64,000 bases of DNA from NCBI GenBank assembly GCA_963681505.1, contig OY811984.1:5579878-5643877 (forward strand), written 5' to 3'. Under the pieces are notes generated by a model that saw nothing but the letters and a program-made list of their open reading frames with translations, had not been told where the DNA came from and searched no databases. Shown here piece by piece: positions 1,201 through 43,110 of this stretch. Both the position numbers and the translations under genes were made by a program. The first letter of the stretch is position 1. Every line of letters begins with the position of its first letter. Source of the stretch: Eunapius fragilis. Taxonomy: Eukaryota > Porifera > Demospongiae > Spongillida > Spongillidae.

Positions 1201-1427
1201 CAGCATGTCGTCAGGTACTTTGCTAATTGCTGCCACGGAAGAAACATGCATGATGACAGCATTATTATAAGGAAACATATCAAGGGAACCGAAAGATTGA
1301 AATTTCAACAAGCGTTGGCAGAATGAGATAGACTGTTTGGTTTGCATCATCGTTCATGGTCCAAATAGCAGTCCGTTTAGAATCCAAGATTCATATCCAT
1401 TATCCATATTCCATTACATGCTACTGA

Positions 1428-1700
1428 ACTGGTGTATTGCATGTACTGGATTGGTATGTTGCATGTACTGGATTAGTATGTTGCATGTACTGGATTGGTG
1501 TGTTGCATGTACTGGACTGGTGTCCATGTACTGGACTGGTTTGTTGTATGTACTACTGGGTTGATGTGTTGCATTTACTGTACTGGTTTGTTGTACATGG
1601 ACGGATGTGTTGCATGTACTGGACTGGTGTGTTGCATGTACTGGGCTGGTGTGTTGTATGTACTGGGCTGGTGTGTTCTATGTGCTGGACTGGTGTGTTG
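1428..1700 (+). repeat. 22-bp tandem array
   Basis: About a dozen copies of TGTGTTGCATGTACTGGACTGG with scattered substitutions. Because 22 is not a multiple of 3, every frame cycles through the same words, which gives artefactual open frames. The reverse-complement version is at 2,762-3,390 and shorter arrays are at 13,005-13,125 and 22,920-23,060. Confidence 0.9.
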
Positions 1701-1712
1701 CCCAGGGGAATC

Positions 1713-2760
1713 AGTGGAGGCTATGAGGCGGGATCATTATGGGACATGAGCATATACCTATACATGATGTACCACGGCCCACTACATACCCATGTTCCAT
1801 ATTCCATTACATGCTAATGTCCCATAGTACTCACTATCTTTATATCCCATGACTATTACTGATCATCTTTACATGCAATTATAAATTTTGGCGTGGGATT
1901 CGTGCCAAGAGTATATCAGCTCTGCACTATATACACACTGGTTAAATCAATTATGTGTACTGCATTGGGTTCCTGGACTGGTGTCTTGCATGTACTGGAT
2001 TGATGCGTTGTACGTCCAGGCATGTCGTGGAAGCCATGGGACATGAACAACATGTGCATGTAAATGGAGCACCTCCTCTACATGGTCCTGTCCTATAGCC
2101 TTGACTACGGGGGGGGGGGGGGGGGGGGCACAACAAAGAAAAAGTAACACTCCAACAACGAACAATAAAATCATTGGGCCTTTTAAACTAGCTGTTAACT
2201 GTCATATCACATCCCACCATCAAAACCATCTTTCCCCCTTTATATATAGATATATTGATGGTGGGATGTGATATGACCATTAACAGCTAGTTTAAGGCCC
2301 AATGATTCTGATTTTAATGTTCGTTGTTACTTTTCCGTTCCCCTGTACATGGTCCTGTCTCAGAACCCTACTGTAAGTAATTTTTTAAACCTCTCAATGG
2401 TGCGCAGTCTACATTTGAGCATATGTAGTGGAGGCATGAGACGTCAACATGAGCATGTAGTGGAGGCCATGGGACTTCTAGATGTGCTTTAGGTGTGTGC
2501 GTGTGTGAATGTGTGTGTGTGCATGTGTGTGTGTGTGGATATGTACCTAAACTAAAGTGCTCATGGCCAAATATCAATTCTAACAATAATATATAACTGC
2601 ATGTAAAGATGATCAGCAATGGGATATAAAGATAGTGAGTACTATGAGACATGAGCATGTAGTGGGCACTGGTACATCATGTGGGTATATGCTCATGTCC
2701 TGCGGCTTACACTACATGATCCTTGCCTCATAGCCTCCCCTAATACTCTGATGCCCCTTG
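1713..2760. repeat. Large imperfect inverted repeat
   Basis: The left arm (about 1,700-1,890), including GGAGGCTATGAGGCGGGATC, ATGATGTACCA and ATAGTACTCACTATCTTTATATCCCAT, reappears as reverse complement at about 2,590-2,760. The 22-bp arrays lie outside both arms in opposite orientation. The whole region at 1,428-3,390 is thus a head-to-head duplication around a spacer of about 700 bp. Confidence 0.75.
2137..2336. mobile_element. Foldback element in the centre of the inverted repeat
   Basis: Arms of about 85-90 bp (about 2,137-2,225 and 2,252-2,336) are near-perfect reverse complements; each contains AACTAGCTGTTAA and CATATCACATCCCACCATCA. The loop is about 25 bp. There is no coding capacity. 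It looks like a foldback or MITE-type insertion. A run of 20 G (2,109-2,128) lies just to its left. Confidence 0.7.
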
Positions 2761-2761
2761 G

Positions 2762-3390
2762 TAACACCCCAGTTCAGTACATGGAACACACCAGACCAGT
2801 ACGTGCAAACACACCAGTCCAGTACATACGACACACAGTCCAGTACAGGGTTGTGGTCAGACTTTCGAAGGGGGTGGGTCAGATATGTGCAAATGAGTTT
2901 ACTTAGAAAGACCTAGTCTTGGTTCCAGACCCAACGGACACAACTGTGGATGGAATACAGGGAGGTCGTTAGACCCCATCAATTCCCCCCCCCCCCCCCC
3001 CCTCGTTATGACCCTGCAGTACAAAGTTGAAACAACACCAGCCCAGTACATATAACACATCAGCCCAGTACGTGCAACACATCAGTCCAGTACACACATC
3101 ACACCAGTCCAGTACATGCAATACACAAGTCCAGTACATACTACACACCAGCCCAATACATAGGACACCAGCCCATACATGCAACACATCAGTCCAGTGC
3201 ATACAAAACACCAGTCCAGTACATGCAACACACCAGTCCAGTACATGCATCACATCAGTCCAGTGTGCAAAACACATCAGTCCAGTACATGCACATACCT
3301 AAAGCACATCCAGAAGTCCCATGGCCTCCAGTACATGCAGCAGACCAGTTCAGTATATGCAACACATCAGCTCACTCAATATAATGGGAT
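2762..3390 (-). repeat. 22-bp tandem array, reverse orientation
   Basis: Repeats of CAACACATCAGTCCAGTACATG, the complement of the array at 1,428-1,700, occur at 2,762-2,850 and densely at 3,027-3,390. A C18 run (2,985-3,002) separates the two parts. Confidence 0.85.
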
Positions 3391-3429: not shown

Positions 3430-3865
3430 GCAGTATTTATTTCATGCAAAAAAAAAAAAGAAATAAAAAAACGACTGGTCCCCAGACCAATAGCTATACA
3501 AAATGCGGGGTTGTATACGGCTTTCTTTCTCTATACGTTCCAAATGGGACGCCCGCACAACTTCCCGACAGCGTGACGCAAGCAATTATCCGAAATGACA
3601 AATATATATATTGGGGGCGTCGAGGCACTCGAGATGGTGTGGGTCTGGGTATGGGATACCAACTGCATACCCAGCGGCGGATCCACACCTAAGCCATTGG
3701 GTTCTCCGTGGGTGTAGTATAGCATCCCACACCAGGTAAGGGGTAGTGGGGCTCAGCCCCAGCTCTGTATAGCTTGAACATTTCTTCTTGAGACGCGCAT
3801 GCGATTATTATAGCGCTGATGTTGCACATAAATTCTAGTAGGGGAGGTGGAGGGCACATGCCCCG
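3430..3865. repeat. Duplicated A-rich spacer block
   Basis: An A-run followed by CGACTGGTCCCCAGACCAAT and about 400 bp of non-coding sequence. Equivalent blocks are at 13,245-13,740 and 23,180-23,750. In this unit the block is cut off at about 3,866 where the gag/LTR relic begins. No gene is seen. Confidence 0.7.
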
Positions 3866-4323
3866 TCCCAACCTCTGAGATAATGTCCGGATTGGATCGC
3901 AAGGCTCGACTACATTCATCTGGAACACCAGCTATGAATTGCTGAAACAACAGTTTGTCTTTACTTTCTCCATCCAAGTCTGGTAGGGCGGATTCAAGCA
4001 AGCGTTGAAGATGGTGCAAGTACATTTGTACGGTTTCACCTGGTCTCAATTTACGCGCTTGGAATTTTGCAAAACGAAGAAAATTGATTGGGTTTCAAGG
4101 CACTGCACAGCGATTGTTTGACTTCGTCGTAGTCCTTCCTGGTTTCCTCTGGGATACTTAACCATGCCACGAGTGCTTCCTTTTCCAGCAAGGTTGGAAG
4201 TTTCAACGCCCTTGTTTTCTTATCCCATTCGTTCGCTGCCGCACAAATTTCAAAACGTTCTAACCAGTCCGTGAAGTCCCCATCCGTACACCGACCTGGC
4301 AGGCTGACATGACGATTCTCCAT
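3866..4323 (-). pseudogene. LTR-retrotransposon gag relic, frameshifted
   Basis: The start codon is the complement of 4,321-4,323. The first frame reads as a gag N-terminal domain (DFTDWLERFEICAAANEWD, then KLPTLLEKEALVAWL). The next frame continues with KLRPGETVQMYLHHLQRLL and LFQQFIAGVPDE, typical of Ty3/gypsy capsid proteins. The two are offset by one small indel at about 4,083-4,095. The relic stops abruptly near 3,866 with no protease, RT or integrase behind it. It sits directly downstream of an LTR-like segment and primer-binding site, so it is the 5' end of a truncated element. Confidence 0.75.
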
Positions 4324-4338
4324 CTTCTCCGACTGATT

Positions 4339-4349
4339 CTCTGCTACCA
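4339..4349 (-). other. Primer-binding site complementary to initiator tRNA-Met
   Basis: On the minus strand this reads TGGTAGCAGAG, which pairs with the CTCTGCTACCA 3' end of animal initiator tRNA-Met. It lies one base inside the LTR end and 16 bases before the gag ATG, as expected for a Ty3/gypsy element. Confidence 0.65.
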
Positions 4350-4350
4350 G

Positions 4351-4586
4351 TGTAACGCCGCGTTTCGATTTCAACACTCCAACTTACAACGTAATACAAT
4401 TGAACTGAACTCATACACACATACAAAATGTTGATATTTACACATGCAAGACAAAGGCACAATAACACAGGCTGTTGGTAGGGCAAGGTACATCGCACGC
4501 CCCATAGCGCCGATGCTCCAAGAGCCATACTATTCACGGAAACCAGTGCACACAATAGGAATACATTGTCACCTCCGTTAGTCACA
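4351..4586 (-). mobile_element. 5' LTR of the truncated gypsy-like element
   Basis: Read on the minus strand, the segment starts TGTGAC and ends GTTACA, giving TG..CA ends with a short inverted repeat, and is about 236 bp. The primer-binding site follows after one base. No second LTR is present, so the boundaries rest on these terminal motifs. It lies about 80 bp upstream of the promoter motifs of gene copy 1 and replaces the upstream block found before copies 2-4. Confidence 0.55.
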
Positions 4587-15348: not shown

Positions 15349-15459
15349 AATCATAGATTATTATATGGTTTAAATGATTTGAGTCGCCATTTTGTTGTTT
15401 ACGAACAATCTAGTACATTAGCTGCCTAAATTTTTAAAAATCTATAAGTGCTCGCTGGC

Positions 15460-35420: not shown

Positions 35421-35830
35421 TTTCGAAGCGATCGGTACTATTGCCGTTCTTCAAAACCGTTCGTAGCTCGAGTTATACCTTCCTAAGAAGAAGAAGAAGA
35501 ATAAGAATTATTTTAGGACTGGGCACGAGAGACAGGAAATTGTCAGTTTCTCTATAACCACACCGTTTTATGACACGGAACCAACGTAGAACTGTAGATC
35601 GTTGTGCTCTCATTCCACCGCGATAAAGAGATAAACGATCCATTTCTCCATTGTCCCTCCAGACGCTAGTGAAGTTTTATTAATGACTTCATTAACCCTC
35701 ATATACATGTATTGAACCTGCTGCCGCAGGTTCAGATTAGCGAGTTGGCAAAAAAAACAAGTGTGTGAAATCACTAAACCAGCGCCATGTGTCTGGGGAA
35801 ACGTTTACATTGCAGTCTGGTGACTTGACC
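35421..35830. repeat. Dispersed repeat F, left half, with conserved hairpin
   Basis: Homologous to 45,185-45,505. It contains GAACCTGC-TGCC-GCAGGTTC (35,717-35,736), whose stem is identical in the other copy while the loop differs. It continues into the sequence that flanks the THAP element and is matched in reverse at 42,060-42,140. Confidence 0.65.
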
Positions 35831-35931
35831 ACAAGCACGTATAGAGCTCTTTCATGGTCACGTGACAAAAAGCAATTAATCACGTAAATGTAATGACGTT
35901 ATCGTGTCCGCCATATTGGTGCTCGGCTGAA

Positions 35932-36363
35932 ATGGGAGTCTGCGTTGTCGACCAGTGTTTGACCAATTCTATGGTAGGCAAGGGCACAAGATTGTACGGG
36001 ATACCTAAAGTAAGAGCCCAGTATGGTGAATATGAGCTAGAATTGTCACAGAGACGAAGGAACGGCTTCCTGGCTGCAATCGGTCGTAAAGACTCGGCGT
36101 CACTTCATAACGCTTGGATATGTTCCCTGCCCTTCATCAAGGGCAAACCAGCGCAGTCACTGTATAGTGAATTAGTCCCAGATTGGCTGCCTTCACTGAA
36201 TCTTCCGGGTATATGTAAGAAAAGCCCAAGTAACAGCGACATTGAACGGCCCTTAGGTACTCGAAAAGACGGCGCGCAGCTACTAAGCGAGAACAAAATG
36301 CGAATAAAAAGTGCAGTGTACCAGGAGTTGCGGCAAAGTCAAAGGCTGTGGATAGTGAGCTGA
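35932..36363 (+). pseudogene. THAP-domain protein, zinc ligand changed
   Basis: 143 residues starting MGVCVVDQC. The THAP pattern is clear: C-x4-C at the N-terminus, RRNGFLAAIGRKD (usually R..W...I.R), then AWICSLPFIKGKPA and DWLPSLNL. In a working THAP zinc finger the third and fourth ligands are C-x2-H. Here the histidine is proline (CSLP), and the usual Trp is Phe. The fold is therefore probably broken, or this copy is decaying. THAP domains bind DNA in P-element and related transposases. Its start lies about 75 bp inside the terminal repeat. Confidence 0.7.
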
Positions 36364-36403
36364 ATGAAAGTAGCGGGGGTATGTCCACCGAGACGATGTG
36401 CGT

Positions 36404-36673
36404 TTGTAGTATGTCTTTCACCCATCCACTAACAAACTGGTTATAAGCCTCCAGAGATTTATGGGCTTTGAACTGTTTGCTAGTTATAAAACTGGTCTGC
36501 AATACTAAATACGATACCAAATCGCATCCACTAACTGGTGGTACAACGTCCGATTTTTCTCCAACGAAGTCAGATGAGAACGGATCTAACCCACCAATGC
36601 TTTCGATTTTATCCATATATCGAGTCTTTGCGTCTGGAGGCAAGCTATCTGCATACAAAGACAGCTTTGACAT
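36404..36673 (-). CDS. N-terminal exon of a YqaJ/SWIM-type transposon-associated protein
   Basis: Minus-strand ATG at 36,673. Residues 1-20 (MSKLSLYADSLPPDAKTRYM), DLVSYLVLQTSF (51-62) and KAHKSLEAYNQFVSGWVKD (69-87) are the hallmark start of a protein family common in sponge, cnidarian and mollusc genomes, whose full members carry a SWIM zinc finger and a YqaJ-type exonuclease. That assignment is from memory of the family. Similarity ends after residue about 87; the frame stays open to 36,137 but is antisense to the THAP ORF there. The rest is missing, so this is a partial gene. Confidence 0.6.
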
Positions 36674-36799
36674 GCTTTACGTTTAAAGAGCGGAATACCC
36701 GAGCACCAATATGGCGGATAATTGATTACGTCAACTAATATATCACATGATTGCTGCTACGGATCACGCGATGAAAGAGCTCTATACATGCGCAACGTA

Positions 36800-41374: not shown

Positions 41375-42240
41375 AACGCTTTGTGACTTTTAGACTGTTT
41401 CTGATTAATGCTGCATGTGTGACTTTAGACTATTTTGATTAACGCTTGTGACTTTTAGACAGTTTTTGATCAATGCTGTGTGACTTGGAAATGTGCATTG
41501 GTACAATCCAGCTTTGAAAATTACATCTGAACACAATGTTCAAACCTGCATGCATGCATGTATACATGCTATATTGTTTATACCAGCTTGGGGCGAAACA
41601 AATAAAATCTCTGCTCTTATGGACTCGCAGAAATCAATGAACTGTAACTCCATGATGGACAGACTAATTTCCAGTGCGTCAGAAAGAAGTTGTAGAGGAC
41701 ATAGGTGTCTCATAGAAAATGAAATAATATGCGCTAGGTCCCTTTACGATCCATAATATTTATATAATATAGTGCATGTTTTAACTTGATAATTTCCGCT
41801 CCTCTCGCAACAACGTTCGTACGATGGCTCAGGTAAAAAGTGAGCTCTATCAGTAAATGAGAATGGACGCATCGATTTCTTGGTGGAACAGGATCTGAGT
41901 TTTGTGGCTTTCTTCAACCAGACGAGACCTTCTAATCCAGGCCGCACTTACAAAAATTCGTTGTGCAAGTTTTACGACTGCAAAGGTATACATGTACACG
42001 TAGACCAAAATCCAACTATATAATTATCGATGCACTTCACGTTGCGCTTGTATAAGTGCTTGTGGTCAAGTCACCAGACTGCAATGTAAACGTTTCCCAC
42101 ACATGGCCCTGGTTAGTGATATTCACACACTTGTTTTTGTTTCTACAACCGCTAATATAGTTTTGATTTCATGCGTTGCAATATCAATCTGTTCCTGTTG
42201 TAAAATATCATTTTCTGTAGTTTGAATGATAGTGAATTAG
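41375..42240. repeat. 38-bp repeat, gene tail and empty site of the THAP element
   Basis: 41,375-41,490 is the degenerate 38-bp repeat; 41,493-41,990 matches 18,580-19,100. From about 41,880 to 42,140 the reverse strand matches the repeat that the THAP element interrupts; the uninterrupted junction is at 42,045-42,062. No gene. Confidence 0.7.
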
Positions 42241-42453
42241 ACAGAAAATATGCTCTTGTGAGAATGCATATATATGGATGCATGCAGGGACGTAATGTGC
42301 ATAGAATTGGGTAGATGCATGGCTGCAGGGTCAGTCAGGTGATGTGTAGGGATTGGTGGAATACAGGTTGCAGTGTCATCCCAGGAAGAGCGATGGCCAT
42401 GTTTTTTAGTGTCCCTAGTTCTGTTACAGGTTGTAAATAATCTGAAACATTCT

Positions 42454-43110
42454 CCCCTCCCCTCCCCTCCCCTCCCCTCCCCTCCCCTCCCCTCCCCTCC
42501 CCTCCCCTCCCCTCCCCTCCCCTCCCCTCCCCTCCCCTCCCCTCCCCTCCCCTCCCCTCCCCTCCCCTCCCCTCCCCTCCCCTCCCCTCCCCTCCCCTCC
42601 CCTCCCCTCCCCTCCTCTCCTTCCCACCCTTCACTCCCTCCTCCCCTCCTTTCCTCCCCTTCCCTCCTTTCCTCCCCTTCCCTCCTTTCCTCCCCTTCCC
42701 TCCTTCCTCCCCTCCCTCCCTCCCCTTTCTCCATCCCTCCCTCCCTCTCTCCGTCCCTCCCTCCCTCCCTCCCTCCCTCCCTCCCTCCCTCCCTCCCTCC
42801 CTCCCTCCCTCCCTCCCTCCCTCCCTCCCTCCCTCCCTCCCTCCCTCCCTCCCTCCCTCCCTCCCTCCCTCCTTCCCTCCCTCCCTCCCTCCCTCCTCCC
42901 TCCCTCCCCCTCCCTCCCTCCCTTTCCTCCCTCCCTCCCTCCCCTTTCCTCCCTCCCTCCCTTCCTCTCTCCCCTGCTTCCCTCCCTTCGTCCCTCCCCT
43001 GCTTCCCTTCCTTCCTCCCCTGTTTCCCTCCCTTCCTCCCCTGCTTCCCTCCCTTCCTCCCCTGCTTCCCTTCCTCCCTCCTCTGCTTCCCTCCCTTCCT
43101 CCCTCCTCTG
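42454..43110. repeat. (CCCCT)n and (CCCT)n tracts
   Basis: About 32 CCCCT units (42,454-42,617), mixed C/T sequence, then about 35 CCCT units (42,735-42,870) and degenerate CTCCCTTCC to 43,110. One strand is pure pyrimidine for more than 600 bp. Long open frames here on both strands are low-complexity artefacts. Confidence 0.95.

Follow-up and report, generated by a model that had tools for sequence, protein, structure and literature searches.

The stretch of DNA analysed here (64,000 nucleotides of Eunapius fragilis, the window) contains an element that is very probably a non-autonomous deletion derivative of a cut-and-paste transposon of the ISL2EU group (PHIS, or Harbinger-like). An earlier note, made from the letters alone, had described an element with inverted ends, in which the start of a THAP gene and the start of a YqaJ gene read inwards from the two sides, and this is confirmed. 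The element is real, and its limits, placed in the note at 35839..36787, are corrected to 35843-36783 (Table 1). The observation made from the sequence is sound, and the interpretation placed upon it is partly supported.

Table 1. Features of the element and of its empty site, in window coordinates.
Feature	Position	Strand	Remarks
Whole element, classed as an internally deleted non-autonomous ISL2EU-type transposon	35843..36783		941 bp
Left target-site duplication AT (target T|AT|A)	35841..35842		Site survey; single TATA at empty site
Right target-site duplication AT	36784..36785		Site survey
Left TIR tip AGAGCTCTTTCAT (13-mer)	35843..35855	+	Inverted-repeat comparison
Right TIR tip AGAGCTCTTTCAT	36771..36783	-	Inverted-repeat comparison
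Left subterminal repeat TCCGCCATATTGGTGCTCGG	35907..35926	+	YY1 motif CGCCATNTT inside; 5 bp before transposase ATG
Right subterminal repeat	36699..36718	-	YY1 motif inside; 25 bp before YqaJ-gene ATG
Transposase gene remnant, THAP region	35932..36363	+	Zinc-ligand His to Pro, frame lost downstream; HTH and DDE gone
Deletion junction CCGA	36388..36391		4 bp present at both break points (L039 element positions 393 and 3819); alignments overlap here
Remnant exon 1 of the SWIM-YqaJ-PHD gene	36388..36673	-	About 95 codons from ATG; compared with L039:592-912
Paralogous empty site (copy of the flank that lacks the element)	41966..42156	-	Target TATA once, 42051-42054

The outer arms of the inverted repeat are 21 nt in length (35835-35855 and 36771-36791) with 95% identity, and the inner arms (i.e. 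the 20-nt subterminal repeats) are 100% identical. The 13-mer AGAGCTCTTTCAT is separated from the exact 20-mer TCCGCCATATTGGTGCTCGG by 51 bp on the left and 52 bp on the right, in inverted orientation. Within the window the 20-mer occurs at these two places only (mean of 0.00 in shuffled sequences). In the 219-Mb genome (24 contigs) it has 315+324 copies with three or fewer mismatches, compared to 1+5 for the reversed control, and there are 199+197 exact copies of ATAGAGCTCTTTCAT (i.e. the tip with the preceding AT), compared to 0 for its reversed control. The genome search with the inverted ends proposed in the earlier note thus returns hundreds of copies, and the possibility raised there that these ends occur only here is false. 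By itself the 12-mer tip is found at chance level when two mismatches are allowed (6 in the window against 5.6 expected); its two exact copies in the window are the two ends of the element. We note that loci L001-L008 and L040-L058 were retrieved by searching for the 20-mer core, and conservation of the core across these short copies is therefore set aside as evidence of function.

The empty site that had been suggested near 42,045-42,062 is also real. The left flank aligns over about 108 bp and the right flank in two shorter pieces (17/19 and 50/62 bases), with a single TATA at the target. The insertion flanks (35736-35840 and 42055-42156) are one duplicated stretch, inverted and 6 kb apart. 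A long CCCTC-type tandem array (42451-42800) adjoins the empty-site paralogue.

The target-site duplication was determined from a survey of 32 distinct insertion sites at which both ends are present. Seven of these were damaged and were set aside, and in the other 25 the left side has retained ATA and the right side TAT. Their tetranucleotides are TATA/TATA (18 sites), AATA/TATA (four), TATA/TATT (two) and TATA/TATG (one). The presence of AT on both sides belongs to the selection of the sites, so that the informative part is the unequal outer bases. Duplication of TATA, as suggested in the earlier note, would need equal tetranucleotides and is therefore excluded, failing at 7/25 of the well-preserved sites; duplication of the 2 bp TA was rejected because the outer bases are unequal at 7/25. 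Duplication of AT, with the element beginning AGAGCTC, is compatible with 25/25. The outer base ahead of AT is T at 320/396 perfect tips, indicating that T|AT|A is preferred. In the sibling family L010-L017 the tip at the YqaJ end is AGACC, preceded by W-AT in 8/8 copies; in L017, of which both ends were seen, one is preceded by T-AT and the second by A-AT. In the sibling families L030-L033 and L037-L038 the tip directly follows AT in 4/6 copies, and in the other two (L032 and L037) it reads ATAAGACC with one extra A.

The earlier note had supposed that the window copy was related to a larger element with two genes and had undergone an internal deletion, and such an element was found at locus L039 (contig C3). 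It is 4,369 bp in length with both ends present and AT on the flanks. Its genes are convergent, as had been anticipated for long members, encoding THAP-HTH-DDE_Tnp_4 on one side and SWIM-YqaJ-PHD on the other. The transposase is an intact 735-aa open frame (L039:2592-4799, minus strand) with Pfam matches to DDE_Tnp_4 (2.1e-51), HTH_Tnp_4 (7.8e-19) and THAP (7e-5, exactly the Pfam cut-off). The second gene lies on the plus strand, with an exon from 592 and then a frame running to 2500; L039 898-955 reads as a 58-bp intron between the exon and the main YqaJ frame. The protein matches YqaJ (2.9e-22) and has a C-terminal PHD finger (2.1e-5). SWIM is absent from the Pfam matches of L039, and the SWIM label rests on a motif search that found a SWIM-like CxCx(n)CxH in the second protein. 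The nuclease-core motif GASPD...EIKCPY was found in L019, which is the same locus as L039. The solved protein nearest to the nuclease part is R354 (8.7e-8), which we take to be a mimivirus protein; no PDB relative of the transposase was found at E <= 1.

Searching the genome with the transposase protein gave at least 65 matches (62 of 600 candidates scored). Among the matches listed there is one full-length stop-free frame (that of L039) and one broken relative on C1 (90-92%). Matches to the catalytic part elsewhere have 69% identity or less, and matches to the N-terminal part have 81-95%, those that were checked being deletion derivatives. That the L039 family appears to have a single stop-free transposase frame among these matches counts against our best explanation. 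The region C1:22234000-22240900 (L040) was considered as a long element and rejected; it holds two short copies, and between them there is no element match and no long matching ORF.

The window copy corresponds to element positions 1-393 of L039 joined to 3819-4367, with 97% identity over 549 bp at the transposase end and 98% over 396 bp at the YqaJ end. The THAP and YqaJ/SWIM labels of the earlier note are correct, and the evidence is this comparison with full-length L039 rather than the window itself, where neither fragment had a THAP or YqaJ match in Pfam. Six other window ORFs also had no Pfam match. In the THAP remnant the histidine of C2CH is replaced by proline and the frame breaks further on, and the YqaJ remnant ends ahead of the SWIM-like motif and the nuclease domain. 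Judged from its frames, the window copy is non-coding in practice.

About 3.4 kb has been lost between the two CCGA words, which form a microhomology of 4 bp. There are at least 57 matches to the window copy in the genome (40 of 84 candidates scored); 16 of the 57 listed extend from one end to the other (query 1-3 to 937-939), and 29 are unbroken over the junction (query 530-560). These junction-spanning and end-to-end copies indicate one deletion that was then multiplied. Deletion derivatives with different break points are present at L043, L053 and L054. The 3.4-kb loss generated a form of ~940 bp that retains both TIRs and exists in many copies; the deletion itself would fit aborted gap repair following excision. 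With no working gene, this form would be mobile only with proteins supplied in trans.

Taken alone, the window copy might suggest a new superfamily in which a THAP protein and a YqaJ/SWIM protein form the transposition enzyme, having THAP and YqaJ ends only and no DDE. This is extremely improbable. The idea is refuted by the DDE_Tnp_4 transposase in the THAP frame of L039, and such a transposase is also found at 30/30 sibling loci (the best 30 of 118). The earlier note knew of no described superfamily with this pairing, but THAP with YqaJ has already been published as ISL2EU (in the available text of PMC4482050). There is equally little to be said for membership of the P elements, Kolobok or another family of THAP transposases with TATA- or TTAA-type duplications. 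The N-terminal THAP, which the earlier note had recognized from P-like transposases, and the apparent TATA on both sides at 18/25 well-preserved sites could be read that way, but the catalytic domain is DDE_Tnp_4 (E 2.1e-51), i.e. the THAP belongs here to a Harbinger-type transposase. Moreover the tetranucleotides are unequal at 7/25 sites, whereas AT fits 25/25.

The element has many relatives in the same genome. There are 118 YqaJ matches (150 candidates scored), and the 30 best-scoring loci (L009-L038) make up the sibling survey, a choice that favours preserved copies. At 30/30 of these best loci a DDE_Tnp_4-type transposase related to that of L039 lies convergently downstream of YqaJ. On the basis of 80% DNA identity over 800 bp the 30 loci comprise 13 families, which are probably all of ISL2EU type, in one 219-Mb genome. 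One sibling family has a THAP match of 1.1e-12. Several families have near-identical copies, e.g. the 630-aa YqaJ frame of L010, L012, L013 and L015-L017, which suggests recent activity.

A PHD finger, scored by its first six zinc ligands, is present in 24/30 of the best loci and 11/13 families; a stricter pattern with tight ligand spacing gave 0/30. Ten of the 11 PHD families show the last two ligands as well, so that all eight are kept in these. In the L009/L018 family the PHD-matching copy (L018) is without the end of the finger, and L033 has a stop inside it. The six loci with no PHD match are two whole families (L026/L027/L034 and L035) together with L009 and L037, sister copies of which have the finger. 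The two PHD-less families are grouped in the DDE tree (99/98) and lie apart in the YqaJ tree, which is weakly resolved. L035 has a 622-aa frame (1321-3186, minus strand) with a SAP domain and a near-threshold SWIM-like finger before YqaJ. The SWIM and nuclease-core motifs were each found at 15/30 loci, both being tight and untuned patterns. Every one of the 20 PDB sequences that best match the L039 PHD belongs to the ING/YNG/PHO23 kind (with E from 1.2e-18 to 1.6e-12, the next being 7e-6), and for the PHDs of two other families the first 20 are likewise of ING kind. ING PHD fingers bind H3K4me3.

The subterminal repeat of the window element holds the YY1 motif CGCCATNTT at both ends, upstream of the two start codons. 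The motif is written in this form in PMC7481187, where YY1 is reported to bind it in the TIRs of lancelet ProtoRAG and to affect transcription and recombination (available text). In the sponge the host YY1 orthologue has 91-95% identity over the zinc fingers. The motif or a near form precedes the YqaJ match by 869-926 bp, in one orientation, in 4/13 families, as CGCCATNTT in L009/L018, L019 and L025 and as the near form GGCCATTTTG in L010-L017. This clustered motif is missing in 9/13 families: in L023 the word at -994 is GCCATTTTG and points the opposite way, and eight have no motif at that upstream place, GCCATGTTG being present further in for two of them (L030 and L036). The transposase end of the L010/L017 family has GCAGCCATTTTG, and in the two families of which both ends were seen each end has the motif or a near form. 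With the reversed control there was a match at one site in two copies (L010 and L017), not near the ends. When the 110 bp preceding the start codon were scored in eight families, L013, L019 and L025 were matched by no more than 1/500 shuffles, L020 was weak (24/500), and four families gave 126/500 or more; 5/8 families were no better than shuffles and the sixth (L020) was weak. CGCCATTTTG is present three more times in the window, and since these copies belong to another repeat the word alone is not specific. Another interspersed repeat has three copies, at window positions 15385, 25429 and 38308; all contain CGCCATTTTGTTGTTTACGAACAA and lie beside long (GT)n tracts. Our literature search found no paper joining YY1, Harbinger and terminal inverted repeat.

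These features can be assembled into a possible mechanism. The transposase would bind the ends, THAP/HTH contacting the TIR tip, the subterminal repeat or both, cut at W|AT|W and reinsert, generating the AT duplications. The YqaJ exonuclease could act on DNA ends in gap repair or end joining, and the C-terminal ING-type PHD finger might recruit the complex to chromatin with methylated H3K4. Before each gene, the subterminal repeat may serve both as a promoter element directed inwards and as a host YY1 site. We infer these roles for PHD, SWIM, YqaJ and YY1 from sequence.

The ING-type PHD and the YY1 motif lead us to a RAG-like plan of organization as a testable idea. A second, unrelated lineage of two-gene transposons might have converged on the RAG plan, with convergent genes, a YqaJ accessory protein whose H3K4me3-reading ING-type PHD steers the complex to open chromatin, and host YY1 sites in both TIRs controlling both genes and perhaps synapsis. 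We put this forward tentatively, with the chances lying against it. It is a serious possibility, though short of an even chance, that the PHD of these ISL2EU elements is carried along passively and that the YY1-like word is only a binding site for the transposase or a chance occurrence, so that the resemblance to RAG is coincidental. The absence of the clustered motif from 9/13 families, the two families without PHD, the short copies that retain the core with no gene to transcribe and the three occurrences of CGCCATTTTG in another window repeat all point towards coincidence. Against this, the first six PHD ligands are kept in 11/13 families, and all eight in 10, despite ~33-64% identity to L039 in YqaJ/DDE; and the motif or near form has one place and one orientation in 4/13 families and is at both ends in the two families with both ends seen. 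The question of THAP with YqaJ is settled, the pairing having been described already, and the useful part is the full-length relatives, where 11/13 families have an ING-like chromatin-reader domain fused to a nuclease. If the reader works, these elements would allow the presence of a PHD finger in RAG2 and the transposons related to it to be tested independently, the idea being that an accessory histone reader is a general means by which a cut-and-paste transposon chooses or senses active chromatin.

ISL2EU is characterized by Han et al. 2015 (PMC4482050) by a DDE+HTH+THAP transposase with a YqaJ exonuclease ORF and an AT duplication, with 25 families in 14 animal species; the two-ORF plan is repeated in PMC9179366. 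Within PHIS (PIF/Harbinger-ISL2EU-Spy) the element shares with this group the DDE+HTH+THAP transposase (the L039 THAP being just at cut-off), the YqaJ second ORF, the AT duplication, the TIRs and a length of 4-5 kb. The target-site duplication is a feature that defines groups in PMC4482050, according to the available text. Two features that are typical but not group-defining differ: the TIR begins AG (a 13-bp tip plus 20-bp subterminal repeat) where ISL2EU TIRs usually begin GG, and the target is mostly T|AT|A where that published is A|AT|T. To judge from the sequence, the element is a non-autonomous, ISL2EU-type deletion derivative of a cut-and-paste DNA transposon, and its family is a new one within a known group. 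The main text of PMC4482050 is without the words PHD, SWIM, convergent and orientation, and in the available text of PMC9179366 SWIM is absent and PHD occurs only as a degree; the remaining mentions of PHD found in the literature on ISL2EU were a methylation-gene legend, a studentship and theses, and Repbase reports, which lie outside the search, may record PHD. The ING-type PHD, the YY1 motif and the convergent genes go beyond the available text of these two papers. In the scallop genome THAP, YqaJ and HTH_Tnp_4 genes are listed as separate families contracted together (available text of PMC10225492), a joint contraction that ISL2EU would explain.

PIF/Harbinger elements proper have in common a DDE-type transposase with HTH and a two-protein plan, but differ in a Myb/SANT second protein and a TWA duplication (PMC4482050), neither of which is found here. 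Rehavkus (a MULE outgroup, PMC6446971) is also a DNA transposon with a PHD finger, but there it lies in the transposase and the duplication is 9 bp. The RAG-like transposons and ProtoRAG share a convergent DDE transposase and accessory gene (PMC7204232, PMC7481187, PMC8355894). As far as the available texts go, the RAG-like accessory protein usually has a C-terminal PHD finger, as in the SWIM-YqaJ-PHD protein, and RAG1L and RAG2L are convergent with PHD in every invertebrate RAG2L except that of amphioxus (PMC7204232). ProtoRAG has the YY1 motif CGCCATNTT inside both TIRs, as in the window element; amphioxus ProtoRAG itself has YY1 sites but no PHD. The transposases are unrelated (Transib/RAG1 compared to Harbinger-type); in place of the RAG1/Transib-type transposase, kelch core of RAG2 and 5-bp duplication, the element family has DDE_Tnp_4, YqaJ and a 2-bp duplication. 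The likeness to RAG is thus one of working, and not of membership.
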